From a virus, in IMG/VR virus record IMGVR_UViG_3300043419_000333, positions 1-25,034 of that record: a DNA stretch of 25,034 nt. One strand, given 5' to 3'. The stretch's first letter is position 1, and each line of letters opens with the position of its first letter. This document shows, in pieces, positions 5,835 to 25,034 of this stretch. Position numbers and translations under genes: made by a program. The notes beneath the pieces are model-generated. The model was not told where the DNA came from. It searched no databases and saw only the letters and a list, made by a program, of their open reading frames with translations.

Positions 5835-5859
5835 TAATTTATAAGCCCACGAAGAAAAG

Positions 5860-6372: not shown

Positions 6373-6421
6373 AATATTATATTTTAAGTTAGGGCGGATT
6401 AACTCATCCGCCCATTGTTAT

Positions 6422-7420: not shown

Positions 7421-7422
7421 TG

Positions 7423-7596: not shown

Positions 7597-7601
7597 TTTA
7601 T

Positions 7602-8168: not shown

Positions 8169-8199
8169 AATTAGAATATTTTAAAATAAGTGGTAGTTT

Positions 8200-9228: not shown

Positions 9229-9247
9229 TTTATATTTTTTTTATTTA

Positions 9248-10981: not shown

Positions 10982-13005
10982 TAGTATATCCTATTTATTA
11001 TTTTAACTAACTCTACTTTACAAGTATCTTCTTTAGAAGCGTTAAAGTCTTCTATTTTATTTAAACGGTATAGTACTCCGTCTACCCAGATTAGTTTCGA
11101 GAAGTCTAGGTTATATATATCTCTATTAGATAATTTCATAGTAGAGGTTAATAGTCTAGAGTCTTTATCGGTTATCTCGGCTAGGTAGGCACTCCAGTAA
11201 ACGTTAAAGAGGTTATTAGGAGTATACGAAGTAGTTGTAAACGTAATCTCTTTAGGTACTCCGAAATTTAGATCGAAGGTAGAGGTACTAGGATCGTTTA
11301 AATGTCCGGCGTAGCCGTAAGAGGTATAAGAGGCTAAGGTAGTACCTCCGTTTTTAAGCGCCCAAGAAGTTACTCCGGTAATCTTTTTAGCTTGTAAGAT
11401 CCTAATTACGCTATCTATCTTATCTTCTTTTAAATTCTCGTTAGACTTTTTATATATAGCCGGGTAAACTTTATCGGTTCCGGATTCCTTATAAAGAACC
11501 GAGCTAGCAAATATTACTTCTACGGAAGTAGTTTCTTTCGCAAATTCGTACTCGCTATCGTAAATATAATCTCCGTAATTCTCGTTATATTTCTTACGGT
11601 AGTTCTCGGCGTAGAAATCGTTATCCGATTTATACTTATAGGCGTAGTATCTAGAGTTAAGTTCGCTCATTGGCTTTATGCGCATCGGTTTCGAGCGATC
11701 TACTTTAAGCGACCAATCTACCGCCGTAGCGTCTTCGTAATACGTTACGAACGGAGATACTTTAATTTTCTTCTCCGTCGTATAGTCTTCGAAAATATAA
11801 AGATTAAACATTTTAACTATCGAAGAGAAGAAGTCTTTCTGTAGTATTCCTTTAGGTATAGTATCGTTAATAACTATATTATCTCCGTAGTTAATAACGA
11901 CATCGGTAGGGGTAGTAGATATTATATTAAAATAACCATCTTCTATGTCTAAGTCCGAAAAGTTACCTACTAGATCTACGTCTAGAGTATCGGTATTAAC
12001 GAGAGCTATAGAAGCTACGTTTAGGATCGCGTTAAAGTTATAACCGCTTCCGGGTAAAGTATAAGTAACGATAGAAATAGGCGTACCGTTTTTACGTAAC
12101 TGTATCGTAAAGTCACTAGACGGACTTATAGCGTTTATAACTCCGGATACGTTTAATATAATACTACCGGCGAAAGCCGTACCGGAGTTATAGGTAAAGT
12201 CGCTACCGCTTCCGGTTATAGTAAAGTTACCTGCGTTAGATATATTAAATTCTACGTTACCGGCGGCGGAAGTATAATTTTTAGTTTTAGCTGTAGCTAC
12301 TAACGCGTCAGAGGTATTTTTAGTTAACTCTTTCTGATTATTCGGTATAACTAAACGATCGAATAGCGCCGTACTTAGTAGAGGAAAGTCCCAAGTATAG
12401 CCGGAGGTATTTATAATATTTGTTAGATATTGCTTTACGTATAGAGCCGGACGAAAGGCTTTAAAGTCGAAGTCTATTTTATTAGTCGATACTACTCCGT
12501 AATCTATAAGCGGAAAGTATACGCCGGATCCGGCTATAGAATCCCAACTACTAGCGATATTAGTATAAGTCCAGGCTATGTCCGCTATACCGAAATCTAG
12601 ATCTTCTAGCTTCTTCGTACCTAGAGCGGCTATAAAGCCTCCTAGCTCTCCGAATACTGCGCACTCGTACTCTATAAAGCCATCGTCTATAATAACTTCT
12701 AAGACGCGGAATATACCTTTAAAGACTTGCATATTATCCGCGAAGATTATAGCGTTAGCGGCTATAGCGGCGTTAAAGTTTATTCCTACGTTATCTCCTC
12801 CCGGGTTATACGAATTAGCGGCGTTAACGCTAAATATATTACCTAGAAGCTTATTATTATTTTTCGTACCCGGTAGTAAGATCGTTTTACTAAACGTACT
12901 ATTTTTAGCTCCGAAGTCTTTAATATCGTCGATCGCTAGAGTTAGAATCGTACTAAAAGACTCGTTAATATCTACTTTATTATTTTCTAGGTAAAGTTCT
13001 ATCAT
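10981..13005 (-). CDS. Large tail / baseplate protein
   Basis: The 674-residue protein lies immediately upstream of the tape measure gene. The N-terminus (MIELYLENNKVDINESFS, then DFGAKNSTFSKTILLPGT) is a recurrent start of a Bacteroidota phage baseplate protein. A middle region of beta-rich Gly/Ser/Thr repeats (~240-370) resembles carbohydrate-binding or immunoglobulin-like sheets. The C-terminal part contains long aromatic and basic stretches. It probably belongs to the tail tip or hub. Composition is extreme: I count one His, two Cys and six Gln in 674 residues, as expected if TG/CA-containing codons are avoided. The start overlaps the end of the 380-residue gene by four bases (ATGA-type coupling). 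Confidence 0.65.
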   Translation of the reverse strand: MIELYLENNKVDINESFSTILTLAIDDIKDFGAKNSTFSKTILLPGTKNNNKLLGNIFSVNAANSYNPGGDNVGINFNAAIAANAIIFADNMQVFKGIFRVLEVIIDDGFIEYECAVFGELGGFIAALGTKKLEDLDFGIADIAWTYTNIASSWDSIAGSGVYFPLIDYGVVSTNKIDFDFKAFRPALYVKQYLTNIINTSGYTWDFPLLSTALFDRLVIPNNQKELTKNTSDALVATAKTKNYTSAAGNVEFNISNAGNFTITGSGSDFTYNSGTAFAGSIILNVSGVINAISPSSDFTIQLRKNGTPISIVTYTLPGSGYNFNAILNVASIALVNTDTLDVDLVGNFSDLDIEDGYFNIISTTPTDVVINYGDNIVINDTIPKGILQKDFFSSIVKMFNLYIFEDYTTEKKIKVSPFVTYYEDATAVDWSLKVDRSKPMRIKPMSELNSRYYAYKYKSDNDFYAENYRKKYNENYGDYIYDSEYEFAKETTSVEVIFASSVLYKESGTDKVYPAIYKKSNENLKEDKIDSVIRILQAKKITGVTSWALKNGGTTLASYTSYGYAGHLNDPSTSTFDLNFGVPKEITFTTTSYTPNNLFNVYWSAYLAEITDKDSRLLTSTMKLSNRDIYNLDFSKLIWVDGVLYRLNKIEDFNASKEDTCKVELVKIINRIY

Positions 13006-14144
13006 ACGAACTGCGTTTTATAACTACCGCCAAATTCTACTTCTATCATTAAGTTAATTAAACCGTCTACGATATGCTCTCTAAATTCGTAGTTAGTACC
13101 CGAAATAGTTACCGGGTATAGTTCGCCTTCGTCTTCTAGGTAAACGTCGTTAGATAGGACTAATTCCGATAGCCATGCGTAGTCTAGATCGCTAAGCCAA
13201 TCGCTATTTAGACGGAGCTTCTCGCGGTACCTACCGGCGAAATCCGTCTTCTGTCGATATAGTACGTTATTACTCGCTACCGATACTACGCCGGAAGAAC
13301 TAACTCTATATCCTAACTGTTGGAAAGATTTCTTTTCTATATCGAAAGTTTTTTTAGATACTTTATTAAATAAGAAAGTATCGTAAGCTCCTAGCTTATT
13401 TAAAAAGTGTACGTAGTAATTCGTATACATTCCTTCGCAAACTACGTTAACTCTATACGTCTTAGTACCTAAAGCTACCGTATAGGTAGTAGTAGCGCTA
13501 GTAAAATTACCGGGGTACTCGTCGTTAATAGCCGAAGGAGATATATTTAAAACGATAGCCGTATTAGCCGCTCCGGGAGTTATAGTCTTAGTACGGGTAG
13601 AAGTACCTCCGGTTATAACTACGTTAAAGGTAGCGGTAGTTTCCGCGAAGTAGGATATAAAGTAATTAGATCCGGTATAGGTTAAAGTAATTGCGTTAGA
13701 TCTATTACTTAGTACGTCGTCGTCGTAATCGCCTAAGTTAGTAAAGTCGTTTATACGCCCGTTATAATGGTTAAAGTACTTACGAGTAGAGTCCGTTAAT
13801 ACTACGGCTCCTACCGTACCGCTATACTCTTCTCGTATCTTTACTACGATAGATATTGACCACTCTCCTTCGCCTAACTCTATAGCCGTAAAAGTACCTA
13901 GAGAAGGTAAGAAGTTAAGCGTAATATATTCGCGTACGATAGTACCGATATCGATTATACCTCTATTATTAGTAGGGTTAGGAAAGTACTTACCGGTAAA
14001 TACTAGAGATCCGTTAACCCAGACTTCGCCTACGTACTTATAGTTAGGGTAGGTCGTAGGGTTAGCGGCGTGCGCGTCGTATACTACGTATACTAAAGGA
14101 TCGTTTACGGAAGAGTATTGAGCGGGAGTTGATTCGAACGTCAT
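13002..14144 (-). CDS. Tail tip (distal tail-like) protein
   Basis: The 380-residue product starts MTFESTPAQYSSVNDPLVYVVYDAH and is beta-rich throughout. It has a YKYVGEVWVNGSLVFTGKYF segment, a Thr-rich middle (residues ~150-230) and a C-terminal EFGGSYKTQF end. Proteins of this type sit beside the large baseplate gene in Bacteroidota phages and are thought to form part of the tail tip. The gene overlaps both neighbours by four bases, so the three genes form a coupled tail unit. I cannot name a Pfam family with confidence. A distal tail role is inferred from position and predicted fold. Confidence 0.6.
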   Translation of the reverse strand: MTFESTPAQYSSVNDPLVYVVYDAHAANPTTYPNYKYVGEVWVNGSLVFTGKYFPNPTNNRGIIDIGTIVREYITLNFLPSLGTFTAIELGEGEWSISIVVKIREEYSGTVGAVVLTDSTRKYFNHYNGRINDFTNLGDYDDDVLSNRSNAITLTYTGSNYFISYFAETTATFNVVITGGTSTRTKTITPGAANTAIVLNISPSAINDEYPGNFTSATTTYTVALGTKTYRVNVVCEGMYTNYYVHFLNKLGAYDTFLFNKVSKKTFDIEKKSFQQLGYRVSSSGVVSVASNNVLYRQKTDFAGRYREKLRLNSDWLSDLDYAWLSELVLSNDVYLEDEGELYPVTISGTNYEFREHIVDGLINLMIEVEFGGSYKTQFV

Positions 14145-14764
14145 GGTACTAAATTATTTATTATATCTATCTTAACCGCCGTACCTAATTCTTTCTCGGC
14201 TATAGGTAGGAATTTATTTGTAGCGTCGCGCCAGAAGTGGCGAGGTTTAATACCTTGCCGTTTAATCATATAGCCCAAAGATACCGCCGCTCGGGTAGAA
14301 GCGTCTAGCATACTTTTGCCTTTAGCCTCTCTACTCGTTACGGATACTTTAACGTTTCTAGAGCTTGCGCCCTCTCGAGCTATATAAGCCTTTAAGGATT
14401 TAACCATAGCGCCTTTAGGATCTACGCCTTTCGTCTTATATTGAAATCTCGATCCGCGATTAACCGCCCAACCGTTAACGCCTTCGTCTACGTAAGAGGC
14501 GTATAGAGGCGCGTTAATACCTACGGTTAAAATATCTCCGTTTACTTCGAGATCGGTAGGCGTTATATTATCTTGCATATAGCCCGAAGAGGCTACGTCT
14601 TTTTTCTCTATCTCTTCGTTAATAAGCTCGATATACGTAGCCGCTAACTGTATTACCGTATTACCCGTATCCGTAAACTCTACCGGCGAATAGTCCGCTC
14701 TAGCTTCTCCGGCTAGTTCTATATCGGTATCTTCTAAAACGGTATGTACGATAGATCTAGCCAT
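14141..14764 (-). CDS. HK97 gp10-like tail completion / minor tail protein
   Basis: This 207-residue protein has the two hallmarks I associate with the HK97 gp10-like family. One is a PLYASYVDEGVNG motif near residues 85-97, where other members have an YA...E.G segment. The other is a C-terminal IKPRHFWRDATNKFLP motif, where members read RPF or RHFW before a terminal helix. Family members act at the neck or tail end to join head and tail. The central segment is basic (REGASSRNVKVSV). The gene overlaps the downstream tail-tip gene by four bases and abuts the upstream gene by one. Its place among tail genes, far from the portal, is unusual for a neck protein. Confidence 0.65.
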   Translation of the reverse strand: MARSIVHTVLEDTDIELAGEARADYSPVEFTDTGNTVIQLAATYIELINEEIEKKDVASSGYMQDNITPTDLEVNGDILTVGINAPLYASYVDEGVNGWAVNRGSRFQYKTKGVDPKGAMVKSLKAYIAREGASSRNVKVSVTSREAKGKSMLDASTRAAVSLGYMIKRQGIKPRHFWRDATNKFLPIAEKELGTAVKIDIINNLVP

Positions 14765-15429
14765 TACTTGCTAATATGTTTCTGATACGATTGATACGAT
14801 TTAAGGTACGCTAAAGTATTAAAAGCCTGTAATACCGGTAGCTCGAAAGCCTTATCTAAAGTAATACCTTCGTGCTCCGCTACTTGCTTAGCGGAGTATA
14901 TCCATCCGTACTGTTCTATAAACGGATGCGGCTTTTCTACCCGAGCTTCTTCTTCGTCTTCAAGGCTTTGCTCTTCCGCCTCAAATAAGCCTTTGTACGA
15001 ATTAAGGAGATCAGCAAACGAAAGAAGGAAGGCGCTAATATCTTTAAGAACATATCGTATATTTTTATTTAGGAGTATCTCGGCTTTTACTTTATGCTCT
15101 CTAGTATCATCCCATATAGAAGCAGCTACGAGGTGCATACTATCTATTTCGCCTAACTTTAAAAAGTGCTGTACTTCTATAAACTGTCCGAGCGTAATAC
15201 TAAAAGCGTCTACGTTTAGTTTAATACGGCTAAAGAAGGGTTTTTTATCGATACCTATAAAAGACTTTTCTATCTTCTTAGAAAGCTTTAAGAACTTACG
15301 AGGCTTCATATTATTAACCTCGTCGTAGGAGAGGTTATAGAGATCGCAAACGATCAAGGCTATCTGAGTTACCTCGTCGTTTTCGGAGTTCCAGAACCCG
15401 GCTATACGTTGATATTCCGCTAACGTCAT
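14764..15429 (-). CDS. Tail assembly chaperone-like protein
   Basis: The 221-residue protein is helical. It starts MTLAEYQRIAGFWNSE, has a FIEVQHFLKLGEIDSMHLVAAS segment in the middle and an acidic patch near residue 155. The end (GWIYSAKQVAEHEGITLDKAFE, then FNTLAYLKSYQSYQKHI) resembles the C-terminal half of tail assembly chaperones that bind the tape measure during assembly. It is the first gene of the tail operon, just downstream of the terminator-flanked tRNA-like element. I saw no slippery sequence that would suggest the frameshift typical of lambda G/GT. Function is inferred from fold pattern and position. Confidence 0.5.
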   Translation of the reverse strand: MTLAEYQRIAGFWNSENDEVTQIALIVCDLYNLSYDEVNNMKPRKFLKLSKKIEKSFIGIDKKPFFSRIKLNVDAFSITLGQFIEVQHFLKLGEIDSMHLVAASIWDDTREHKVKAEILLNKNIRYVLKDISAFLLSFADLLNSYKGLFEAEEQSLEDEEEARVEKPHPFIEQYGWIYSAKQVAEHEGITLDKAFELPVLQAFNTLAYLKSYQSYQKHISK

Positions 15430-15466
15430 ATACTATAAGTGGTCGTTTTGCGGGTTTTGTTTCTAG

Positions 15467-15495
15467 AAAAAACCCCAGTATAGAAATACCGGGGG
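15467..15495 (-). terminator. Intrinsic terminator 3' of the tRNA-like element
   Basis: On the minus strand, CCCCGGTAT-TTCT-ATACTGGGG forms a hairpin (one C/A mismatch) followed by six T residues. It lies downstream of the tRNA-like element and about 40 bases before the start of the tail operon. Tail genes probably need their own promoter or antitermination. Confidence 0.75.
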
Positions 15496-15523
15496 ATTAA
15501 CCGCCTGCGAGAGCTAGGTTAGT

Positions 15524-15605
15524 AGTCGGGGTAGGATTCGAACCTACGGAACCATTAACGGAATCAAGACACTTAGGTAGGCTCCACAAATTCCGCCACC
15601 CGACT
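15524..15605 (-). tRNA. Class-II tRNA-like element (Leu/Ser type), anticodon arm not resolvable
   Basis: The 82-base minus-strand element has a perfect seven-pair acceptor stem (AGTCGGG with CCCGACT) and a perfect T arm (GTAGG, TTCGAAT loop, CCTAC). It also has a GGTGGCGGAATT D-arm start like that of tRNA-Leu, plus extra length for a variable arm. I could not form a proper five-pair, seven-loop anticodon arm; the region around 15560-15580 seems broken. No CCA is encoded. It may be a degenerate tRNA, a tRNA-like structure, or an attachment-site remnant copied from a host tRNA 3' end. Two intrinsic terminators flank it, so it would be made as a short separate unit. Confidence 0.55.
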
Positions 15606-15608
15606 TTT

Positions 15609-15641
15609 AAAAAAACCCCTAACGTAGAAACGCCGGGGGGG
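15609..15641 (-). terminator. Intrinsic terminator after the large terminase gene
   Basis: On the minus strand a CCCC..CGT-TTCT-ACG..GGGG hairpin with a small internal loop is followed by seven T residues. It lies about 32 bases past the terminase stop and directly before the tRNA-like element. It separates the packaging genes from the tail operon. Confidence 0.75.
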
Positions 15642-15672
15642 TAGTATGTCAAATCACTAACTAAACACAAAA

Positions 15673-16866
15673 CTAATATTCATCTTCCGCGAAGGAGTAG
15701 TTACCGCTATTCTCGAACTGCGAAAGCTTATTTAACCCTATATATCGTAACGCGTCTATAGCGTGGTTCATTATATCCTCCGGAGCGTTAAGCGCTCTTC
15801 CTTCTCGATCCTTAGCCCAGCGGTACTGCCGTAGTTCTTTAATCAAATTTAGGCTATTTTTCGTAACCCTAATTTCGTACTGTTGTAATCTATCGATAGA
15901 AGCCTTTATAGAGTCTGGTCCTTTCCTAGCAGCCTCGATATAGAAACCGGCGTTACTTACGTCCGCTATACTCTTAGGCTCCGCCGAATCAGCTACGATA
16001 GCTCTAGAAGTATGTACTCCGTAGGCTTTTAAACGCGCTATTATCTCTCCGTTAGTAAGCTTAGTCTGATATAGTAACTCGTTTACGTATATCCTTCCGT
16101 CGTACCTATAAGCCTCTATAAGCGCCGTAGGATCGTTCGTAAAGCCCCAGTCTAGTCCGTAGGCTATAAACTCGGCTTCTTTCGGTATAGACTCGCAAGG
16201 CTCCCAGTTATTAAATACTACTCCGTCTAGAGATCCGATCTCTCCTAAGCCGTAGACGCGGTACCAATTAGTCCAAAAGCCGGAGCCGGTACTAGCCTTC
16301 TCCTTAGCCTTTAGAATAAAGTTTAGAGCGGATTCCGGGCAGGCTTCGTTATCTAGGTAGTTAATAATTAAAAAGTCTACGTCGGTATCGTTTAGAAGTT
16401 CGTCGTGAAACCAGAAGGGGTTAGTAGGATTCCAATCTAGGTATACGCCTTTCTTAGTACGAGAGGCTAATTCTGTATATGCGTGAAAGCTCATATTATT
16501 GCTTTCATTCATATATAGCCAATCTCTTCTAGCTCCTCTTAGCTTAGCGTCGTTATCCGCCGAAAAAAACTCTATTACCGATCCGTTAGCGAAGGTATAT
16601 TTAAAGTCGGTAGCGTTCCAACGCTCTTCGAACCAGCGCCCGGTTTCGAACATTATTTTTTTAAAGTCTTTCATAGCTCCGCGCTTTAAGTGCGGTATCG
16701 ATTCAGCTACTACCGAGATCTCGCTAAACGGAGATTTAGCCGCTACGTCTATTAGTATAGGAAGTATAGCGTACGTTTTGCCGGCAGAAGTCCCACCTTG
16801 TACGCCTCTAACGAAGCGCCTAAGCTTTAAGATCTTATTAATAGCGGTAGTACGTATAAAAGCCAT
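15673..16866 (-). CDS. terL: Terminase large subunit
   Basis: The 397-residue motor protein has a Walker A motif QGGTSAGKT at residues 23-31 and a Walker B-like WLYMNES at 116-122. Its C-terminal RNase H-fold nuclease has YGLDWGFTNDPTALIEAY (near residue 240), VADSAEP (~295) and a final HAIDALRYI (~370). The GGTSAGKT form and the GLDWGFTNDP motif place it among PBSX-type terminases. It pumps genome DNA into the procapsid and cuts it. Its ATG overlaps the stop of the small subunit gene by one base, so the two are coupled. It is closed by a terminator at 15609-15641. Length is normal to slightly short for the family. Confidence 0.95.
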   Translation of the reverse strand: MAFIRTTAINKILKLRRFVRGVQGGTSAGKTYAILPILIDVAAKSPFSEISVVAESIPHLKRGAMKDFKKIMFETGRWFEERWNATDFKYTFANGSVIEFFSADNDAKLRGARRDWLYMNESNNMSFHAYTELASRTKKGVYLDWNPTNPFWFHDELLNDTDVDFLIINYLDNEACPESALNFILKAKEKASTGSGFWTNWYRVYGLGEIGSLDGVVFNNWEPCESIPKEAEFIAYGLDWGFTNDPTALIEAYRYDGRIYVNELLYQTKLTNGEIIARLKAYGVHTSRAIVADSAEPKSIADVSNAGFYIEAARKGPDSIKASIDRLQQYEIRVTKNSLNLIKELRQYRWAKDREGRALNAPEDIMNHAIDALRYIGLNKLSQFENSGNYSFAEDEY

Positions 16867-17285
16867 TACTCGGGTTTAACGTCCGGGAATAAACCTTGCT
16901 CTACCTTTACGTCGGTTTGAGTCTTCTCTACTAGTCCGTTAAGGCGCTGCGTTATCGACGGGTTATAGATACCCGCCATACCTCCGCCTATCTGATCTTC
17001 TCGTATAGCTTCCTTTATACGCGAACAGATCGGTACATAATCGTTATATCTTCCGTCGCGGTTAGAGAAATAGTCTTTTAATTGAGTTATACGATCCCAA
17101 CAAAAGAGGTTAAAGCCTTCCATCGTTAGAGGTCTTTCCTTCTTACGATCTACCTGTACTCCGGCTCCTCCTACCCAATCGGTAACGATAAACGGCTTAC
17201 TTTTAGCGTCTTTCCGGTAGGCTTCGAATAGTACCCATAAATCTTCCGGCGTAAGATATTTACTTAATCCTTTCTTAGTCGGCAT
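16866..17285 (-). CDS. terS: Terminase small subunit (gp3-like DNA-packaging protein)
   Basis: The 139-residue product directly precedes the large terminase. It shows the pattern of Bacteroidota phage small terminases: a PEDLWVLFEAYRKDAKSKP N-terminal helix, RPLTMEGFNLFCW (a helix-turn-helix-like segment), and YNDYVPICSRIKEAIREDQIGGGMAGIYNP with a terminal QRLNGL helix. Small terminases recognise the packaging site and stimulate the motor ATPase. The start overlaps the end of the upstream 67-residue gene by 11 bases and the stop overlaps terL by one base. These overlaps mark one operon. Confidence 0.85.
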   Translation of the reverse strand: MPTKKGLSKYLTPEDLWVLFEAYRKDAKSKPFIVTDWVGGAGVQVDRKKERPLTMEGFNLFCWDRITQLKDYFSNRDGRYNDYVPICSRIKEAIREDQIGGGMAGIYNPSITQRLNGLVEKTQTDVKVEQGLFPDVKPE

Positions 17286-17478
17286 TTTCTTCGGGTTTAG
17301 GGTTTTCGAATACGAAGCGTACGAGTTCGTTAACGCAGGACTGGCATCCTCTAACCGCCCAATCTAACTCGGGGTTAATTTCCTTAGCTAACGCTATAAA
17401 TTTCTCTATCTCGATATCCGAAGCGTGGGCATCGATTCCGATTTTTACTCTTTCATAGAGATACTCTAGTTCTTTCAT
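17275..17478 (-). CDS. Small acidic protein of unknown function (67 aa)
   Basis: The 67-residue product starts MKELEYLYERVKIGID and is helical and acidic. It has two Cys close together (GCQSCVNEL) and ends in a charged tail. It overlaps terS by 11 bases and the upstream 59-residue gene by four bases (ATGA), so it is translated within the packaging operon. I do not recognise a family. The close Cys pair is not enough to claim metal binding. Confidence 0.65.
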   Translation of the reverse strand: MKELEYLYERVKIGIDAHASDIEIEKFIALAKEINPELDWAVRGCQSCVNELVRFVFENPKPEENAD

Positions 17479-17654
17479 ATTTCTTTTATTTTATTTTTTA
17501 CTTCTAACCATAATAAGTTATCCGGGAATATATTAGCTTCTATAAGTATATCTACGCAGATCGTAGCGCATTCTTTAGCGTTATACTTTACCGGACCATG
17601 TACGTATTTTTCGAACCGTTCTACTAAACCTATAGCTATATCTCGCGAGTTCAT
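17475..17654 (-). CDS. Small AKxCA-family protein (59 aa)
   Basis: An ATG at 17654 opens a 59-residue frame that ends at a TGA (17475-17477). It shares four bases with the gene on each side, so it is clearly part of the coupled cassette. The product starts MNSRDIAIGLVERF, then has NAKECATICVDILIEA and ends LLWLEVKNKIKEI. These motifs match the ADEL/AEEL, AKQCAL..(D/N)E and W..VK.EIEKL pattern of the products at 21395-21625, 22718-22960 and 22957-23046. It is therefore a paralogue carried inside the TG/CA-poor block. Such tiny proteins recur in Bacteroidota phages; the function is unknown. Confidence 0.8.
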   Translation of the reverse strand: MNSRDIAIGLVERFEKYVHGPVKYNAKECATICVDILIEANIFPDNLLWLEVKNKIKEI

Positions 17655-18124
17655 AGATCTATAAATTTTTTAATATTCTTCCTAGCGTTCTGTACCGTAT
17701 GGTATATCGAAATATGCGGGATACCCGTCGCTTCGGCTACCTTACGATACGTACCTAGTTCGGCGTATAGTTCTAGTATTTTAGCTTCGTACCAATGGAT
17801 TCTATGTAAAGGTACTACAATTACCTCTACTTCTATTTCCTCTAATACGTCCGGTAGCGATTCTAAGTACGTTTCCTTCGCCTCTAGCTTCCTAAACGAG
17901 CCTCTTTCCCATCGGACCATATTAACGAGCATTTTAGCGACGTAAGCCTTTAGTTTATTTCTATTATAGAGATCTATAATAAACTCTTCCGGCTTAGAGA
18001 GGAGATCCTCGAAAGTATGTTGTAATACCTCCTCCTGTATATCTACCGGTCGTATACGCGATAAACATACCCGAAGGTCGTTAGATATATAAAGCTCGGC
18101 TATTATGTCTTTAGAGTTTTTCGT
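17651..18124 (-). CDS. Sigma-70-like / HTH transcription factor, apparent ACG start
   Basis: The frame encodes ~157 residues if it starts at an ACG codon (18122-18124), reading (M)KNSKDIIAELYISND. The next ATG is only at 17932, which would remove the first 64 residues. Those residues look coding (PVDIQEEVLQHTFEDLL, then FIIDLYNRNKLKAYVAKM) and resemble the N-terminal, region-2-like half of small sigma-like proteins in Bacteroidota phages. The C-terminus is a helix-turn-helix with ELGTYRKVAEATGIPHISIYHTVQNARK. The protein could direct transcription of the packaging and structural operons or act in a sequence-specific switch. It follows the GTTACA repeat region directly, and a TAA lies four codons upstream of the ACG. 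A lost ATG, an ACG start or a shorter product from 17932 are all possible. Confidence 0.65.
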   Translation of the reverse strand, partial: TKNSKDIIAELYISNDLRVCLSRIRPVDIQEEVLQHTFEDLLSKPEEFIIDLYNRNKLKAYVAKMLVNMVRWERGSFRKLEAKETYLESLPDVLEEIEVEVIVVPLHRIHWYEAKILELYAELGTYRKVAEATGIPHISIYHTVQNARKNIKKFIDL

Positions 18125-18162
18125 AGTATAAAATTATAAATAATTAGATAAATATTTAGAAA

Positions 18163-18420
18163 GTTACAATAGTTACAGAATAGTTACACCTATTGTAACT
18201 TTTAAGTCATTGATTTCTAGCGAGTTATAGTGATAGTTACAAAGTTACAGGTTTTTCGGTATCTCTATCTCTAAATACCTATATATGTATTATATATATA
18301 TATAATATAAGTATTTTTTACTTCTTAGTAAGTATGTAACTTTGTAACTTTGACCTATAACCCGCTCCTACACTAGGTTTGAAAGTTACATCCGTTGTAA
18401 CTTTGCTGTAACTTTGTAAC
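18163..18420. repeat. Array of 12 GTTACA/TGTAAC copies (iteron-like; candidate origin or operator)
   Basis: The sequence GTTACA starts at 18163, 18172, 18183, 18236, 18244 and 18385. Its inverse TGTAAC starts at 18194, 18335, 18343, 18396, 18407 and 18415. Many neighbours lie 8-11 bases apart, close to one helical turn. The copies fall into two clusters that flank an AT tract. The only non-coding stretch of this size (18134-18419) sits between the DUF3987 replication gene and the sigma-like gene, so an origin of replication or an operator is likely. The repeats keep TG and CA where the surrounding block avoids them, which argues for a conserved function. They also contain TAACTTTG, a match to the Bacteroidota promoter -7 element TAnnTTTG, so a promoter array is an alternative. 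Confidence 0.75.
18280..18318. other. AT-only tract inside the repeat array (possible unwinding element)
   Basis: A run of nearly pure A/T with alternating TA steps lies between the two repeat clusters. Iteron-type origins commonly place such easily melted DNA beside the initiator-binding repeats. This role is inferred from the layout only. Confidence 0.5.
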
Positions 18421-20708
18421 TAAAAAGCCTTCTCGTACGTATTTCTTTCGATCTTTTCGAAGAGTTTCCCGACGTTTCGCTTTAAAAATACCTTTACGGT
18501 AGATTCTTTCATACCTAAACTAGTTCCGATTGTAACTATCGTTTTAGTGGTAAAGTGCGCCGGAAGTTGTTTATATAGTTTCTCCGTTACTCCTATAAGA
18601 GCTTCTACCGGGTTATCAGGGTTAAGTAGTTTTAAAGCTTTATGCATATTCGATAGAAAGTACTCCGTAAGCCTTATAGCTCTTTCGATAGAGGCTAAAC
18701 GTATCTCGTAGCTACGATTACCTAGATCTTCGGCTACTTGTATAATTAGGGCGAAGCGAAGGCAGTAGTCTTGATATTTAGCTATAATCCCTTTAATATG
18801 GTCGCTCGTCGCTATGTTATACTTTTTATTCTTATTATCGAACCACGATTTATATAGGTCGTTAGCTTCCGGCGAAAGGTAGTATATCGCCTTCTCTTCC
18901 TTCCGTAGGTTTATAAGATCTATAAATATCTTCCTAAAGCTATCGTTAACGTGTTTAGGTACGGTAATCTGTTCCCACTCCGTTTTACGTTGCGGCTCCG
19001 GATATACGAAAATAAACCTATGATAAAACCCGTTATGGGCGTTATCATCCCGGCTAAGGGATTCTAGTACGCCCGGTTGTATACCTCCGACGATAGTACA
19101 AAAAGGTTCTTCTACCTTATTTTCGTCGCGCGTAATACGTTGAAGTAGTATAGAATCTCCGGACCACATCGATAGCCACTTTTGGACTTCGTCACCCGAC
19201 TTGTACTGGTTCATTCTATTTAGGAATCCTACTAACTCGTCCGCTACTAGAGCGCAGCCTCCTTTATTAAAGGATAGGATTTTAACGACCATTTCTATCG
19301 TAGAGTCTTTTATAATCGTTTGCGGGAAAGAAGGCTTTAAAGGCTTCTCTTCTCCTTTCTTCTTACTCTTATCGTACTCGGCTAGTCTATCGTTATAATC
19401 TTTAAGAAGTAGCTCGTAGCTCTTATAAAGGTCGTTATCATACTCTTCGATAGGTTTAAAGGCTTTAGTAAGCGCCGGAGTTTTAGAGGCTCCGGGAGGC
19501 GCTACGATCGCTATATAGAGAATAGGTTTAACTATATACCCGTCGAAAGGACTTAGTACCGTAGAGTTTCCTATAGCGGTAGATAAAGCGGCTAGGATAG
19601 ATCCGGCTAGATATTCGTGTTGTATTCTTTGCGATCTTATAAAGCCTTGTATTTCTTCCGGGAATATATCGTACGGGAAGGCGGCTTTATCGTTTATCGC
19701 TACGTTAGTTATATCTAGCTTCGGAGATAGGTCTATATCGTTATCCGCGCAGATCATTTCGATAGTATCTATCGTAAGCCTCCAATCCCGTTTAGACTTA
19801 TAGTATATAATCCGGGTAGGAGTAAGAACCCAAGAGGTATCGTTTTCGTTAATCTTAGTATGAAAGTTAGGGTAGTCGACGAAGGAAGCGGACATTAATA
19901 AAAGCTTCTTACTACCGAAATATACTTTAGCGGAGTACGTAGCGTTAGATCCTTTCCGAAGATAGGGAGTAAATTTCTTCCGGCTAAATAGGCGTTTATC
20001 TTTTACCTCGTATAGATCTAGGGAGTTAAGGAGTTCTACGAAAATATCGTCGGTACAATCGCTATCGAATTTTAAAGCTATCGCTTCGTATTCGGAAGGG
20101 TACTCTATAATCTTAGCTTCCGGGGTTAGTTCGTCACCTTTCGTATAGGCGTTAAAGTAGGAAGCTATAGAGCATAGCGTATCGAACTCGTCGCTAGTTA
20201 GTTCTTCGATATCGTCGAACTCGTTATAGATAAACTCGTAACCGGGGGTAGGAGCGCAGAAGCTAAGTAGTCCGCCGGTATAGATAGCGATTACTTCTCT
20301 TCCTTCTTCGGAGAGAGCTAGCATACGCTTATTAGTTATCTTACTATACTTAGCGTAAACGTGGTAGCCGTTAGATCTCGTAGACTCGATACATACTTTA
20401 CGTAGTACGTCTTCGTTTAGGGCGCGGACGGTTTTAAGAAATTCGTCGAAGATATTTTTACGATTATCGTTTTTTAGATCGAAGTCGAACATAAAATACG
20501 GGGGGTATAGTTTTAAAGCCATACCGTTAGCGTCTTGAATCTTATTAAACCAACGAGTAATATCGTCTAGGTCTGGGCGGTCGCTACCGTTTCTTATATC
20601 CGTTTTATGCTCCGGATATATCCGCGCGTCTTTACTCTCGGTATCCCACTTAATAGGAATAGGAGTAAGCCCCATATTAAATATGTCGTGAAATATTTTA
20701 ATGTCCAT
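18420..20708 (-). CDS. DUF3987-type primase/helicase replication protein
   Basis: The 762-residue protein has an N-terminal region (~1-250) with features of a primase-polymerase-like domain: GLTPIPIKW near the start, FMFDFDLKND (~75) and STRSNGYHVYAKY (~105). A long C-terminal part resembles the DUF3987 family of phage and plasmid replication proteins. Its segments are a P-loop-like VAPPGASKTPALTKAF near residue 400, a GGCALVADELVGFLNRMNQY Walker-B-like segment, then GDEVQKWLSMWSGDS, TIVGGIQPG and NGFYHRFIFVYPE. A C-terminal helix-turn-helix-like region (GTSLGMKESTVKVFLKRN) ends the protein. It should initiate or drive phage DNA replication. The origin-like repeats lie immediately past its stop codon, and the last repeat abuts that stop. 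The P-loop is atypical (GASKT). Confidence 0.8.
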   Translation of the reverse strand: MDIKIFHDIFNMGLTPIPIKWDTESKDARIYPEHKTDIRNGSDRPDLDDITRWFNKIQDANGMALKLYPPYFMFDFDLKNDNRKNIFDEFLKTVRALNEDVLRKVCIESTRSNGYHVYAKYSKITNKRMLALSEEGREVIAIYTGGLLSFCAPTPGYEFIYNEFDDIEELTSDEFDTLCSIASYFNAYTKGDELTPEAKIIEYPSEYEAIALKFDSDCTDDIFVELLNSLDLYEVKDKRLFSRKKFTPYLRKGSNATYSAKVYFGSKKLLLMSASFVDYPNFHTKINENDTSWVLTPTRIIYYKSKRDWRLTIDTIEMICADNDIDLSPKLDITNVAINDKAAFPYDIFPEEIQGFIRSQRIQHEYLAGSILAALSTAIGNSTVLSPFDGYIVKPILYIAIVAPPGASKTPALTKAFKPIEEYDNDLYKSYELLLKDYNDRLAEYDKSKKKGEEKPLKPSFPQTIIKDSTIEMVVKILSFNKGGCALVADELVGFLNRMNQYKSGDEVQKWLSMWSGDSILLQRITRDENKVEEPFCTIVGGIQPGVLESLSRDDNAHNGFYHRFIFVYPEPQRKTEWEQITVPKHVNDSFRKIFIDLINLRKEEKAIYYLSPEANDLYKSWFDNKNKKYNIATSDHIKGIIAKYQDYCLRFALIIQVAEDLGNRSYEIRLASIERAIRLTEYFLSNMHKALKLLNPDNPVEALIGVTEKLYKQLPAHFTTKTIVTIGTSLGMKESTVKVFLKRNVGKLFEKIERNTYEKAF

Positions 20709-20736: not shown

Positions 20737-21207
20737 TTATAAAGATACTATATAATCGTATAAATAGAAGAACTCCTCCGGCGTTTTAATAAACTCGTAT
20801 ATACCTCCGGCGCGGCGCTCTCTAGCTTGTTCGGTTAACTGATCCGGTCGCGGTCTATCCGAGCCTACTTTAATTTCTAGCATAACCGATCTACCTTTAA
20901 TAGTAGCGGATATATCGGCACTGCCTTTCCGCGTTGATGATGGCAACCACTTTTTAACGCCTATTTTTGCCCCCGATGGTTGTTTCTCAACACTATCAAC
21001 AAGCCGCCCCATTACGTTGATTCTGGTGGCCCGGTGGCCTTTCCATGATAGGTAATTGCAAACAAACGATGTGAGGCCGTTCGCGGTGTCAACCTTCGGA
21101 ACCTTCGGTTCTAAATAATACCCGTCTTTATATGCCGATGGATATTGAACTTTAAACCATTCCAGGTGCGCGGACATGTACCTGGGGTGATCAGTTTTTT
21201 TTGCCAT
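20737..21207 (-). CDS. VRR-NUC domain nuclease (chimeric composition)
   Basis: The 156-residue product ends in a VRR-NUC core: KGSADISATIKGRSVMLEIKVG gives the G..D and ExK catalytic positions (near residues 97 and 109), followed by RPRPDQ and ARERRAGG. VRR-NUC proteins are PD-(D/E)XK nucleases, often Holliday-junction or flap enzymes of phages. I choose the ATG at 21207 (MAKKTDHPRYM), which overlaps the end of the upstream gene by 17 bases; an upstream ATG at 21237 would give a 47-base overlap. Composition changes inside the gene: the N-terminal ~96 codons are ordinary, and from about 20918 onward TG and CA are avoided. The join lies in the catalytic core. Confidence 0.85.
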   Translation of the reverse strand: MAKKTDHPRYMSAHLEWFKVQYPSAYKDGYYLEPKVPKVDTANGLTSFVCNYLSWKGHRATRINVMGRLVDSVEKQPSGAKIGVKKWLPSSTRKGSADISATIKGRSVMLEIKVGSDRPRPDQLTEQARERRAGGIYEFIKTPEEFFYLYDYIVSL

Positions 21208-21391
21208 AGTATTCATTATAAAATTGTTCGGCATCAATCAACGCATCGTGTTTTTCCATGTCGGTTGTGCCGTTCCAATATGCGTCAATGATTTGTTGTT
21301 TTTCTTTTTGTTTGGCGAATTCAACCGATGCTTTATAATCATCAAGGCCGAATTCTTGAACCAACCATTCAACTGCTGTTTGTTGTGCCAT
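21191..21391 (-). CDS. Small conserved phage protein (66 aa), AVEWLV family
   Basis: The product starts MAQQTAVEWLVQEFGLDD, then has a FAKQKEKQQIIDAYWNG helix and an EQFYNEYYGKKN end. This TAVEWL...KEKQQI.DAY...AE.YYNE pattern is very frequent among Bacteroidota phage and prophage accessory ORFs. The function is unknown to me. It overlaps the VRR-NUC start and lies three bases after the upstream ORF, so it belongs to the coupled accessory cassette. Confidence 0.75.
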   Translation of the reverse strand: MAQQTAVEWLVQEFGLDDYKASVEFAKQKEKQQIIDAYWNGTTDMEKHDALIDAEQFYNEYYGKKN

Positions 21392-21394
21392 AGT

Positions 21395-21625
21395 TTATAG
21401 TTTTTCTATCTCTTTCTTTACCTCTTCCCAATACTTAAACCTATCTTTCTCCCACTCTATACCTCCTCCCCCCATCCATGCATACATCTCGTCTATCCTT
21501 TCATCTATACTCAGTAATGCACATTGCTTGGCAATGGAATAGACTGCTGCATTTGTTGTTTCGGGATGCGGTAGTTCACTAAGGAATTTATTATATAGTT
21601 CTTCTGCTTTATTTTGCGATGTCAT
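21395..21625 (-). CDS. Small AKxCA-family protein (76 aa)
   Basis: The 76-residue product starts MTSQNKAEELYNKFLSEL, has SIAKQCALLSIDERIDEMY in the middle and a Gly-rich GGGGIEW loop, and ends YWEEVKKEIEKL. It is the clearest representative in the window of a small family defined by an N-terminal AEEL helix, AKQCAL and a W..VK.EIEKL end. Its start overlaps the upstream 67-residue gene by 17 bases. The function is unknown. Confidence 0.75.
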   Translation of the reverse strand: MTSQNKAEELYNKFLSELPHPETTNAAVYSIAKQCALLSIDERIDEMYAWMGGGGIEWEKDRFKYWEEVKKEIEKL

Positions 21626-21812
21626 TGCTATTGATTAACATACCTGCTATCTTATTTCTTTGGGCTTCCATCTTCTCTTCTATATTATCTACTCTAGCAT
21701 TTAAATAACCCTGTACAAACCCATTAATCCAAAAGTATTTATCATTTTCATCACAATGATGACATCCTTCCCATTGCGTTTCGGCTAATTGCTCTATTTC
21801 TTTTGCTGTCAT
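21609..21812 (-). CDS. Small protein of unknown function (67 aa)
   Basis: The 67-residue product starts MTAKEIEQLAETQWEGC, has a CHHCDENDKYFWINGFVQGY segment and ends in a charged helix. The C..C pair with neighbouring His residues hints at metal binding but is far from diagnostic. The gene abuts the upstream 129-residue gene by one base and overlaps the downstream ORF, which fits a coupled accessory array. No family is recognised. Confidence 0.65.
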   Translation of the reverse strand: MTAKEIEQLAETQWEGCHHCDENDKYFWINGFVQGYLNARVDNIEEKMEAQRNKIAGMLINSNDIAK

Positions 21813-21813
21813 A

Positions 21814-22203
21814 TTAATATTCTCTTATTGGTGTATATTTCTCAATCGATATAATATAATCATCTAATATTAATGCATTTCTGCCTATATAATAATAATC
21901 CCCCATCTTAAATGCTCTATGTACTTCCCCAATACCGTTTAGAAACGTCTGAACTGTATATTGGTTATCTGGATTGAATCTAGCATGAAATACTTGAGTA
22001 TCCTCTTCTGTCTCTAAACTGTCTTCATACACCCCATTCTTCCACATCCACTCAAATAAACGAATGCGTTCACCCTCGGTCATTTCATACCAATACTTAT
22101 CAGTTAGACTTTGCCAAAACATGGCTCTTGCAATTGCTCGTGGGGGTATGCACGCTTCTGCTAAGAATGATAACTCAAAGAAGTCAATTTGAAATGTGCT
22201 CAT
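21814..22203 (-). CDS. Conserved hypothetical phage protein (129 aa)
   Basis: The product starts MSTFQIDFFELSFLAEACIPP, then PRAIARAMFWQSLTDKYWYEMT and RIRLFEWMWKNG. These features recur in conserved accessory ORFs of Bacteroidota phages. The C-terminal half is more beta-rich (YTVQTFLNGIGEVHRAF, YYYIGRNALILDDYI). No enzyme motif is visible and no function is known to me. It sits three bases past the 104-residue gene and one base before the next ORF. Confidence 0.7.
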   Translation of the reverse strand: MSTFQIDFFELSFLAEACIPPRAIARAMFWQSLTDKYWYEMTEGERIRLFEWMWKNGVYEDSLETEEDTQVFHARFNPDNQYTVQTFLNGIGEVHRAFKMGDYYYIGRNALILDDYIISIEKYTPIREY

Positions 22204-22206
22204 TAC

Positions 22207-22521
22207 TTATTTGTTTAGTTTTCTCAAATCCTCATCCAATCTTTCAAGGAACGACTCCTCACCATCATCTCCTGACAATAGCCAATCAATCCTTTGAGCA
22301 TACACTTCAGCTATGTTTAAGATGTTGACAGCATCCTTGAACTTGGCAATCACTTCATCTGGATACTTATAGTGGTACGGGTCTTGTATGTCTCCAAGCC
22401 AATACTCACTATTGAGTTCTTGCCTAGTCTTTTTTCTGCCACTCTTATTTATCTCATCTATAATAGCTTCAGCTATATACCCTATTCTTCTTTGGTCGTA
22501 TTGAAATTTTCCTCCACTCAT
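22207..22521 (-). CDS. MSGGxF-type small phage protein (104 aa)
   Basis: The product starts MSGGKFQYDQRRIGYIAEAI, a widely shared N-terminus of small phage proteins of unknown function that begin MSGG.F.Y. The remainder is helical and charged, with FKDAVNILNIAEVYAQRIDWLLSGDD and a LDEDLRKLNK end. It lies one base after the 63-residue membrane ORF and three bases before the next gene. The function is unknown. Confidence 0.75.
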   Translation of the reverse strand: MSGGKFQYDQRRIGYIAEAIIDEINKSGRKKTRQELNSEYWLGDIQDPYHYKYPDEVIAKFKDAVNILNIAEVYAQRIDWLLSGDDGEESFLERLDEDLRKLNK

Positions 22522-22522
22522 G

Positions 22523-22714
22523 TTATTTGTTTATTTGCAATAAGAGTCTGAATAAAATGAAGGTTATAGCAAAGTCTAATACAATTAATGCTATAACTAG
22601 TCCAGCTGAATGCTCTTCCATTATATCAATAGTTTTTCTTGTACACCAATTAAACAGGTGCTGTACTAATACAATGAATAAGCATAGTGAGATTGTTGCG
22701 ATTGTTAGTGCCAT
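22523..22714 (-). CDS. Small membrane protein (63 aa, two transmembrane segments)
   Basis: The product has two hydrophobic stretches: residues ~3-20 (LTIATISLCLFIVLVQHL) and ~40-58 (LVIALIVLDFAITFILF). A short loop with a Cys and basic residues (FNWCTRKTID) separates them. It is therefore predicted to be an inner-membrane hairpin. In a phage accessory cassette it could be a superinfection-exclusion or holin-like protein, but there is no lysis enzyme beside it and nothing distinguishes these options. Confidence 0.6.
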   Translation of the reverse strand: MALTIATISLCLFIVLVQHLFNWCTRKTIDIMEEHSAGLVIALIVLDFAITFILFRLLLQINK

Positions 22715-22717
22715 AGT

Positions 22718-22960
22718 TTATAGTTTTTCTATTTCTTGTTTAACTGAACCCCACCATTTAGCACTATCTTCTAACTTTTGAGGATACCAATACTGTGAAC
22801 TTGAACCAGCTTCATCCCAATCTGTATCAACAGGTTCAAATGGTGCTGATAGTATTATTTCATTTACTGCAACCAATGCACATTGTTTAGCAATTCTTGA
22901 ATCATTTGTCAAACGCCAATACCCAACATGCAATTCATCTGCTTTCTCTTGTGGTGTCAT
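22718..22960 (-). CDS. Small AKxCA-family protein (80 aa)
   Basis: The 80-residue product starts MTPQEKADELHVGYW, has SRIAKQCALVAVNEIILS and ends WWGSVKQEIEKL. It shares the order and motifs of the 76-residue product at 21395-21625. The start overlaps the stop of the upstream 29-residue frame by four bases (ATGA). The function is unknown. Confidence 0.75.
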   Translation of the reverse strand: MTPQEKADELHVGYWRLTNDSRIAKQCALVAVNEIILSAPFEPVDTDWDEAGSSSQYWYPQKLEDSAKWWGSVKQEIEKL

Positions 22961-23046
22961 ATTTTTTCTATTTCAGTTTTTACATCTTGCCAATATTCTA
23001 CTTTTGGTGCATGGCTGATATAATAATTAATCCCCGATTCCATCAT
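22957..23046 (-). CDS. Very short AKxCA-family C-terminal fragment (29 aa)
   Basis: An ATG at 23046 (or 23043) opens a 29-residue frame, MMESGINYYISHAPKVEYWQ, that ends DVKTEIEKI at a TGA shared with the next start codon. The end matches the W..VK.EIEKL terminus of the neighbouring paralogues, but the AKQCA part is missing. It overlaps the upstream 58-residue ORF by 20 bases. It is probably a decayed or minimal paralogue that still couples translation. Confidence 0.5.
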   Translation of the reverse strand: MMESGINYYISHAPKVEYWQDVKTEIEKI

Positions 23047-23203
23047 CGTTGTTTTTGATTTTATATATTTCCATGCACGCCCATTGTATTAATGCCGATA
23101 AAATTTCCTCTTTTTTATCATGCTCTAAATCATGGTAATCCGGGTAAATTTTGAATATTGTATGTTCGATTTTGCCATCGTTGTTAATATTCAATCCACT
23201 CAT
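23027..23203 (-). CDS. Small protein of unknown function (58 aa)
   Basis: An ATG at 23203 opens a 58-residue frame ending in TAA at 23027. The product is helical and acidic: MSGLNINNDGKIEHTIFKIY, then an EEILSALIQWACMEIYKIK helix and an NNDDGIGD end. The segment ILSALIQWACMEIY has the look of a small phage accessory protein. No family is recognised. It is the first ORF after the HNH gene terminator, so transcription probably restarts just upstream. Confidence 0.6.
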   Translation of the reverse strand: MSGLNINNDGKIEHTIFKIYPDYHDLEHDKKEEILSALIQWACMEIYKIKNNDDGIGD

Positions 23204-23246
23204 TGTTATTTTTATTTTTGAGTTGTTTCCAAAATGGAAATGGGTT

Positions 23247-23277
23247 AAAAAATGAGCCAGGGTAGAAACCCCGGCCC
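23247..23277 (-). terminator. Intrinsic terminator after the HNH gene
   Basis: On the minus strand GGGCCGGGGT-TTCT-ACCCTGGCTC forms a ten-pair stem (two wobble pairs) followed within two bases by a run of six T. It lies 20 bases past the HNH stop codon and separates that gene from the small accessory ORFs. Confidence 0.85.
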
Positions 23278-23297
23278 GTTCACAATTAAAAACAATA

Positions 23298-23855
23298 TCA
23301 ATCCTCTTGATTCAATATGCAATCAACAATGAAATCATTGTGAATTTCCAATGTATCAAGCAAAATATTACTGTCAAATCTTCTGTACATTTTTCGTTCT
23401 TGATCGTATATAATAAAACGATGCGCTTTTTTATGATGTTTTTTTGTCAACCAAATTACATTTTTTGCATGCTCAACATTATATGACCAATGATGTTTTT
23501 CCAATGTTTTATCCGGGTTTTTTAAAGATGCTGATAAACTTCTGACTTGATATTTTTCTGGATATCTATCATTATATTTTTTCGATCTTTCCGGGTTTGC
23601 TTTGTTGATTTTGTTTGAATATAATTTCCGGTATTTTATTCTACCTCTTTTGCGTTCTTTTTCTAAAAAACCATCATGATTTTTATTTGATAAATAATTG
23701 CCCTTGACATCATTTTTAGTGCATTCTTTACATTTATTTAAATGCCCATCGGACATTTTAGAATGTTTATAAAATTCAATCAAGGGCAATAATTTTCTGC
23801 ATTTGAAACATATTTTTTCCATCACATGATTTTTGTAAAAATACAAATTAATCAT
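23298..23855 (-). CDS. HNH endonuclease with zinc-binding N-terminus
   Basis: This 185-residue protein (or 173 from the inner ATG MEKICFKC near 23820) has an N-terminal CFKC...CKEC zinc-ribbon-like part. A basic linker follows, then a C-terminal HNH-type core: KTLEKHHWSYNVEHAKNVIWLTKKHHKKAH. Stand-alone phage HNH proteins of this type are usually homing endonucleases that cut DNA lacking them, or nickases. The gene has its own strong terminator and lies between the SSB-like gene and the small ORFs, so it may be an insertion in an older operon. Base composition is AT-richer than in the genes to its right. Confidence 0.8.
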   Translation of the reverse strand: MINLYFYKNHVMEKICFKCRKLLPLIEFYKHSKMSDGHLNKCKECTKNDVKGNYLSNKNHDGFLEKERKRGRIKYRKLYSNKINKANPERSKKYNDRYPEKYQVRSLSASLKNPDKTLEKHHWSYNVEHAKNVIWLTKKHHKKAHRFIIYDQERKMYRRFDSNILLDTLEIHNDFIVDCILNQED

Positions 23856-23882
23856 TTAAAATGGAAAATTAAAAGTTCCATT

Positions 23883-24245
23883 CTAAAATGGCAAATCCGA
23901 CAGAATATCCGCCGCCGGTGCATCCGGTTGCCTCAATTCGGATTTTTTAAAATTACCGATGTACGTTTTCTTTTCCTTTGCTTCGCGTTGTTCCTTTGAT
24001 TGACGAACCGAAACGGAACCGATGTTTCCGTATTGATCAACATTTTCATTGATCCAAATGTCGATGTTCAAATACAACTTGCCATTTTTTGCCTGCGTTA
24101 AATTTCCTTTTGGGATGTCCGAAACGCAAATCGAACCATTGAATAATTGATTCATAATCATTGCCGGGTATCGGGTGCCGGTGCCGTTAAAAGTTAAATA
24201 GCGATATTTTCCGGAATTCCGTATTTTAAAATTTGCCGTTCCCAA
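23883..24245 (-). CDS. Single-stranded-DNA-binding-like protein
   Basis: The 120-residue product ends in DILSDLPF, which resembles the acidic D(D)(L/I)PF tail by which SSB proteins bind partners. The body has short beta strands (YRYLTFNGTGTRY, KNGKLYLNIDIWINENVDQYG, IGSVSVRQS), compatible with an OB-type fold but without a clear canonical SSB match. Its start overlaps the 3' end of the exonuclease gene by 52 bases. Together the two look like a recombination or replication pair in which the SSB-like protein coats the strand exposed by the nuclease. Confidence 0.65.
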   Translation of the reverse strand: MGTANFKIRNSGKYRYLTFNGTGTRYPAMIMNQLFNGSICVSDIPKGNLTQAKNGKLYLNIDIWINENVDQYGNIGSVSVRQSKEQREAKEKKTYIGNFKKSELRQPDAPAADILSDLPF

Positions 24246-24757
24246 AATTCGGGCGCTTGTCTTATCAACGCCTTTTCGGTGTTTAGTGTTTTAGGACATA
24301 CCCGAATGATGATCCCGGTGGGCGTGTTTGTTGCTAAACAATACCCGGTTAATTGATTGCCATATCCAAAATGATCAATCGACTTGCCCAATGGCATTTC
24401 CGAAACTTTCAGATCCACAATCAACCGGCCCGGCCGAATCAAATCAATACGGCCTTTGTATTGCATCGACAAGCCGGCGTGTTCCATGTTGCATGTTACC
24501 GATACTTCGGATTGCATGTGTTTAACCAATTCGCCAATCTGAAACAATAACACCCGGGCAATGGGAACAACCAATTCCCGGTTTGCTCCATTGTACTTCT
24601 CTGGCTCCAGGATGTAATTATGTACGGCGGTTCCCAACATCATTTTTTTAGTCGGTACGAAATCGCCGTTTTTGATTCCGGAATACGAAAGGCCGGGAAG
24701 GGCGCGGTATTGATCAAAGTTCAAACCGGGATGAACTTTTAGTCGGGTTACTTGCAT
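24194..24757 (-). CDS. PD-(D/E)XK exonuclease (RecE/YqaJ/DUF3799-like)
   Basis: The 187-residue product has the core of RecE C-terminal and related phage exonucleases. An N-terminal YRALPGLSYSGIKNG is followed by LGTAVHNYILEP (helix before the core). The catalytic strands are MQYKGRIDLIR and RLIVDLKVSEM, giving the D..DxK residues near positions 108 and 124. A GYGNQLTGYC helix supplies the final Gln. Such enzymes chew double-stranded ends in phage recombination, and a partner annealase often lies nearby; here the SSB-like gene follows. It overlaps both neighbours. Confidence 0.8.
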   Translation of the reverse strand: MQVTRLKVHPGLNFDQYRALPGLSYSGIKNGDFVPTKKMMLGTAVHNYILEPEKYNGANRELVVPIARVLLFQIGELVKHMQSEVSVTCNMEHAGLSMQYKGRIDLIRPGRLIVDLKVSEMPLGKSIDHFGYGNQLTGYCLATNTPTGIIIRVCPKTLNTEKALIRQAPEFWERQILKYGIPENIAI

Positions 24758-25034
24758 ACTTCAATGGTTTCAATGCCAGGGATAACGTTTCCGGTTTCGT
24801 TGATATGCTTTGCCAATGCGTCCGCCATTTGTCCGATGGTTAACTTTGTCCATGATTTGACGCGAACGTATTGGTTAACGTATGGCCACAACCGGACAAA
24901 GTTCGAAACAATCGCTTTTGCCCATTGTTCCGTTTCATCAACTTTAATCTTGATTTCCTTTTTTACTTTCGGCGTTTCAACGATCATGGTTTCGGCCTCG
25001 GCAATCAATGCGTTGGTTGCGGTTTCGAATTCCA
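24748..25034 (-). CDS. Protein of unknown function, N-terminus cut by the window edge
   Basis: The frame is open from base 25034, and only the C-terminal ~94 residues are seen. A TTG at 25008 is an in-frame codon and not necessarily the start. Visible segments are a charged ETPKVKKEIKIKVDET, then EQWAKAIVSNFVRLWPYVNQYVRVKSWTK-like helices and QMADALAKHINE. No catalytic motif is seen. It overlaps the exonuclease start by ten bases and is therefore likely part of the same recombination operon, perhaps an annealase or accessory factor. Confidence 0.6.
   Translation of the reverse strand, partial: EFETATNALIAEAETMIVETPKVKKEIKIKVDETEQWAKAIVSNFVRLWPYVNQYVRVKSWTKLTIGQMADALAKHINETGNVIPGIETIEVCK

Follow-up and report, generated by a model that had tools for sequence, protein, structure and literature searches.

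The iterons of SaPI origins flank an A/T tract. The initiators of SaPI and SCCmec elements have iterons just 3' of their own gene and read them through a C-terminal domain, and SaPI Rep and its origin form a matched pair, as described in PMC7581432 (citing Ubeda 2007 for SaPI). SCCmec Cch2 uses its C-terminal domain to bind direct repeats that follow the helicase gene (PMC7581432). The pRN1 initiator ORF904 has a PrimPol-helicase-winged helix order and its origin, an essential stem-loop of 100 nt in which no iterons were found, lies downstream, 3' of the gene (PMC4234260). In PLE, the initiator RepA and its iterons co-vary and are swapped as a module (PMC7145576, PMC8263062), and conflict, as between the Odn nuclease and PLE, can drive iteron change (PMC8263062). 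A role as mobile-element helicase was earlier predicted for the DUF3987 domain, and C-terminal winged helices were proposed to serve in origin recognition (PMC5862659). For PrimPol-DUF3987 phage initiators, no described origin was found in the searchable literature.

Here we analyse a box array in a 25-kb IMG/VR virus record (IMGVR_UViG_3300043419_000333, positions 1 to 25,034; this whole stretch is referred to as the window), in which terminase genes adjoin the array. We consider it highly likely, from sequence comparison, that this phage replicates from the array, bound by its initiator Rep through a winged helix; two opposed assemblies would melt an A/T tract. As in SaPI, the repeats lie directly downstream of the initiator gene, the first box sharing a base with the stop codon, as they do in 27 of 31 relatives, and they stand on both sides of an A/T-rich tract. 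The window Rep, however, matches only DUF3987 in Pfam and not DUF927 or Primase_Cterm/D5, it carries its own PrimPol and belongs to a full phage rather than to a satellite, and a near-exact mirror layout with many different words is seen in its family. By analogy, the array would thus work like a SaPI origin, but we do not class it as a SaPI replicon because Rep belongs to another family. The Cch2 iteron AAGTG resembles the window unit AAGTNNCA, although Cch2 has three iterons only, a separate primase-polymerase and a helicase of a different family (PMC7581432). The domain order of ORF904 is also that predicted for the window Rep, but the window has twelve iterons together with hairpin folding. 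PLE RepA differs in being a RepA_N protein with N-terminal DNA binding and three semi-palindromic iterons of about 30 bp (PMC7145576, PMC8263062). As for iteron plasmids of the R6K/RK2/pSC101 type, Rep has no RepB/Rep_3-type WH1-WH2 match in Pfam.

Rep and its box array

Rep (762 aa; 18420..20708, minus strand) matches PF13148 (DUF3987) with an E value of 2.4e-60 and phage helicase/primase families in PHROG. In Foldseek searches with its AlphaFold model (mean pLDDT 84.9), the PrimPol part resembled pRN1 ORF904, the top match, and NrS-1, and the AAA+ part was closest to MCM helicases. Rep is therefore predicted to comprise an N-terminal PrimPol, an MCM-like DUF3987 AAA+ helicase (residues 363-692) and a C-terminal winged helix (about residues 705-762; 18423..18596, minus strand), the latter modelled with pLDDT mostly above 90. 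Searched alone, the winged helix returned generic winged-helix folds, none below E 0.09, and Rep had no match by sequence among solved structures. No DNA similarity to cultured phages was found, the best Rep match there being 30%, and the genome contigs searched with Rep gave one distant match, in Marinifilum, by which a Bacteroidota host is suggested.

The motif GTTACA/TGTAAC occurs 17 times in the whole window, and twelve of these boxes, six per strand, fall inside 258 bp at 18163-18420. Plus-strand boxes start at 18163, 18172, 18183, 18236, 18244 and 18385, and minus-strand boxes at 18194, 18335, 18343, 18396, 18407 and 18415, giving start-to-start distances, by rising coordinate, of 9, 11, 11, 42, 8, 91, 8, 42, 11, 11 and 8. 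This is far above chance: one 6-mer occurs 12 times in the 453 bp 3' of rep, compared with a mean of 4.5 and a maximum of 7 in 300 dinucleotide shuffles and a maximum of 6 in the other windows of the contig (n=237). The six GTTACA and six TGTAAC boxes of the original prediction are thus borne out, as is its placement of the array downstream of the DUF3987 gene, which is right in the gene's own sense, rep being on the minus strand. The box nearest rep overlaps its stop codon by one base (18420). Exact 13/14-mers of the array did not occur in the literature searched.

On the minus strand, which is the Rep sense, the order is F-8-F-11-F-11-R-42-F-8-F-[A/T]-R-8-R-42-F-11-R-11-R-9-R, or in short FFFR-FF-[A/T]-RR-FRRR. 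An outer quartet near rep (18385..18420, FFFR; 18415-18420, 18407-18412 and 18396-18401 on the minus strand, 18385-18390 on the plus strand) is followed by an inner pair of boxes 8 bp apart (TGTAACTTTGTAAC, FF; 18335..18348, minus strand), by the pure A/T stretch that the boxes had been said to flank, a run of 23 bp at 18288..18310 that we presume to be an unwinding element, by the inner pair of the far side (GTTACAAAGTTACA, RR; 18236..18249, plus strand) and by the far outer quartet (18163..18199, FRRR; 18194-18199 on the minus strand, 18183-18188, 18172-18177 and 18163-18168 on the plus strand). Tandem boxes 8 bp apart show a unit of 8 bp, AAGTTACA. When boxes are paired first with last and inward, their outer ends sum to 36583 once and to 36584 five times (window coordinates), so that a single dyad centred at 18292, within the A/T tract, relates five pairs exactly and the outermost pair within 1 bp. 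This near-exact dyad is a point absent from the earlier description. Six symmetric pairs had p 0.0005 by gap shuffling with the order of orientations fixed; a test by orientation shuffling is weak, since the box positions stay symmetric. A candidate IHF site, AATCAATGACTTA, lies in the far 42-bp spacer (18203..18215, minus strand).

The boxes had also been described as held against a local bias. TG/CA is depleted from about 1.7 to 20.7 kb of the window, with odds of 0.15-0.6 and 0.33 over the block (1700-20700; CG 1.69, TA 1.45), whose genes contain 698 TG/CA, 440 of them forced by Met, Trp, Cys, His or Gln. The depletion is common to L006 and L007, and L008, whose Rep is 84% identical, is near normal. 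The lost sites went to many different dinucleotides, so this looks like dinucleotide avoidance rather than one mutation type. A test of in-box TG/CA density was dropped as circular by choice of the word, and retention relative to L008 was used instead. Among the TG/CA of the L008 array, 11/13 in boxes and 1/14 outside are still present in the window (Fisher p 7e-5), which bears out that description; substitution between the two arrays is 5/77 within boxes and 61/186 elsewhere (p 2e-6).

Arrays and their words among Rep relatives

Through Rep and its alignment we collected 49 viral loci; at 90% identity, 31 were non-redundant. An array was scored as at least 8 copies of one 6-mer in a 453-bp flank. 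Of the 31 relatives, 27 have such an array 3' of rep, none has one 5' of rep and none inside the gene. Lack of conservation in relatives, which the original prediction had named as refuting, is thus not what was seen for the array, although its word differs between them. At L009 the array is of mixed GTWACA words, and at L159 a GTTACA array stands 640-900 bp from rep with one inserted reverse ORF between them. No clear array was found, among these 31 loci, at L013 (degenerate) or L168 (none). Of 14 loci in Bacteroidia genomes that encode distant DUF3987 proteins (about 30%), 2 had a 3' array of at least 8 copies; the 3' array is a trait of the PrimPol-fused family and not of DUF3987 helicases in general. 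Two of the distant Bacteroidia genes, L186, a DUF3987 helicase gene, and L188, have CCGCCA x10 and GGACCA x8, respectively, in the 3' flank, possibly GC-rich counterparts of the array.

The words among relatives include GTTACA, GTAACA, TTATGC, TATAAC, GTTGCA, TTGTGC and AGTAAA. To place the 19 words on a tree of Rep residues 1-700 takes at least 20 changes, and GTAACA and GTTACA each arose more than once. The FFFR-FF-AT-RR-FRRR layout recurs with other words, such as GTAACA (L014), TTATGC (L015, L031), TTGTGC (L017) and TATAAC (L020), with spacings of 8, 11 and 42/52; the difference of about 10 bp between spacers suggests whole helical turns. Gap shuffling gave p below 0.002 in L008, L015, L020 and L031, and exact dyad symmetry is complete only in the window, L008 and L014. 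Several relatives have inner and outer pairs with different centres, and six relatives show no excess of symmetric pairing. One box per subunit cannot be a general rule, since box numbers range from 9 to 19. Furthermore, matches to the IHF consensus WATCARNNNNTTR numbered 24 in the 31 flanks and 2.6 in shuffles (sd 1.5, maximum 7), a ninefold excess, often between the inner pair and the outer quartet, and such sites may be read by a Bacteroidota IHF/HU protein. The slope of GC skew changes near the array in two relatives, a change for which gene direction may account.

Word and protein change together at the C-terminal end of Rep. In three pairs of close relatives with different words (L164/L166, L162/L164 and L155/L163), identity is 0.83-0.88 over residues 1-700 and 0.36-0.52 over residues 733-762, the lowest 30-residue window of Rep in each pair, so that the difference is concentrated in the recognition helix and wing. 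The mean drop in identity was 0.202 for these pairs and 0.009 for same-word pairs (n=5; Mann-Whitney p 0.004, the pairs not being independent). The signal is present only for recognition helix and wing in close pairs; across all pairs, the C-terminus as a whole (from residue 695) showed no signal when its identity was compared with word identity. Word-dependent divergence includes the recognition helix (residues 735-744; 18477-18506, minus strand), at whose end residue 744 (18477-18479) is Arg in 23/23 loci with words ending in CA and in 0/5 with others. Among the latter, residue 744 is Asn at the three loci whose word is AAGTAAAA or AAGTCAAA; Ser occurs with AAGTAAGG, Gly with AAACGAAA. This link reflects 3 independent changes only (sign test p 0.25). 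Arg-G and Asn-A are usual direct protein-DNA contacts. The predicted winged helix and the word-linked divergence in its recognition helix and wing, from sequence and model only, are consistent with a C-terminal reading of the origin.

Probable origin function and alternative readings

The twelve boxes are very probably landing sites of the phage's own replication starter protein. The original prediction left the choice between an origin and a multi-site operator; because the array is kept next to rep (27/31) and the word changes along with the part of Rep that reads DNA, the origin is favoured over an operator of the neighbouring gene. In the latter case a small HTH protein, or another regulator, would control the downstream HTH/TerS operon or rep itself; rep and the gene that follows the array are on one strand, and an HTH protein is encoded next door. 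However, the downstream gene varies (24 clusters in 31 loci), which shows that the array goes with rep rather than with its other neighbour; moreover, the word co-varies with the Rep winged helix, and a 260-bp symmetric array around an A/T tract would be unusual for an operator, which makes this explanation very improbable. Rep autoregulation through the array is possible as a second role. Of the two candidate binders, the 762-aa protein is likelier than the one called sigma-like, a label that Pfam did not support, the neighbouring HTH gene (17651..18121, minus strand) giving a weak HTH_23 match only. This gene probably starts upstream of the ATG at 17932 and is outside the conserved module. 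Its L008 homologue starts with GTG, and the same position in the window reads ACG, possibly a casualty of TG loss or a rare start.

Rather than duplex boxes, a hairpin of the mirror arms, single-stranded or cruciform, could be what is recognised, as in a pRN1-type origin. In fact, the array folds as single-stranded DNA into one long hairpin (z -7.7), the arrays of most relatives fold better than shuffles, and the pRN1 initiator, with the same domain order, has a stem-loop origin downstream of its gene (PMC4234260). But hairpin strength is an automatic outcome of inverted boxes, the spacers of L008 are not complementary, and the direct pairs 8 bp apart and the co-variation of word and Rep indicate duplex reading; we thus hold this alternative to be highly improbable. 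A packaging site, recombination site or neutral repeats without replication function, which the terminase genes about 0.9-1.3 kb beyond the array could suggest, is extremely improbable, as relatives have different genes there yet keep the array beside rep, and the boxes are conserved while the spacers change (5/77 and 61/186 substitutions).

The best reading is therefore a Rep-specific, SaPI-style replication origin, possibly one at which two opposed hexamers are loaded. Rep, encoded directly upstream in its own sense, would bind the 8-bp unit via its C-terminal winged helix, and the six mirror-image boxes on each side of the A/T tract would give two oppositely oriented assemblies, probably hexamers with one box per subunit. 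Two hexamers are proposed on the strength of the symmetry, of the resemblance of the fold to MCM and of the parallel with SaPI. Between inner pair and outer quartet, the spacer may be bent by an IHF/HU-type protein. The assemblies would melt the A/T tract and then load as MCM-like helicases, and the fused PrimPol domain would prime, so that forks could start both ways.

More tentatively, and on balance doubtfully, the family could serve as a natural library, with at least 19 pairs of initiator and word, whose ancestral origin was a strict 2 x 6 double-hexamer origin switchable in specificity by few residues. Simple contacts would let one small winged helix read all words: Arg744 would contact the G opposite to C7 in AAGTNNCA, and Asn744 would contact A7 in AAGTAAAA/AAGTCAAA. 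The ancestral origin would have offered one box to each subunit of two opposed hexamers of the MCM-like kind, in a bacterial virus.

Independently of that reading, the geometry of the array is largely kept in the family while its word turns over at least 20 times, and the change maps to one 30-residue stretch of the protein. With these natural sequences it can be tested how an initiator switches specificity in step with its origin, and whether MCM-like initiators that load themselves set two opposed hexamers by mirror-image sites. They also offer a rule for finding origins in uncultured phages, namely that the place to search is immediately beyond the primase-helicase stop codon.

GTTACA arrays elsewhere and the ends of the window

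The ends of the window (1-1640 and 21160-25034) are not TG/CA-depleted and depart from the 94-96% match to the relative G002, which could reflect recent recombination or a chimeric contig.

In viral contigs matching the exact 14-mer GTTACAAAGTTACA, clusters of at least 6 boxes were found at 43 or more loci. Isolate-derived viral records are among those with GTTACA clusters (L075:283-520, L089:1562-1888 and L093:990-1227), and at L075 and L093 the cluster adjoins a phage tail tube protein (Phage_TTP_1) and not an initiator. At L036, L056, L059, L077, L080, L104, L133 and L101, GTTACA arrays are directly 3' of VapE, DUF927/HTH_56 or NrS-1-like initiators. The initiators with such arrays (VapE-like, DUF927 with Cch HTH_56, DUF5906 and NrS-1-like) are not BLAST relatives of the window Rep, and the same word across unrelated initiators is a selection effect because the loci were found through the word itself. 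Among the matches listed, several of these arrays lie no further than about 10 bp 3' from the initiator stop, and the same 8-bp pairs are present. These loci, a sample chosen by the word, suggest that 3' arrays could be a common habit of self-loading initiators.
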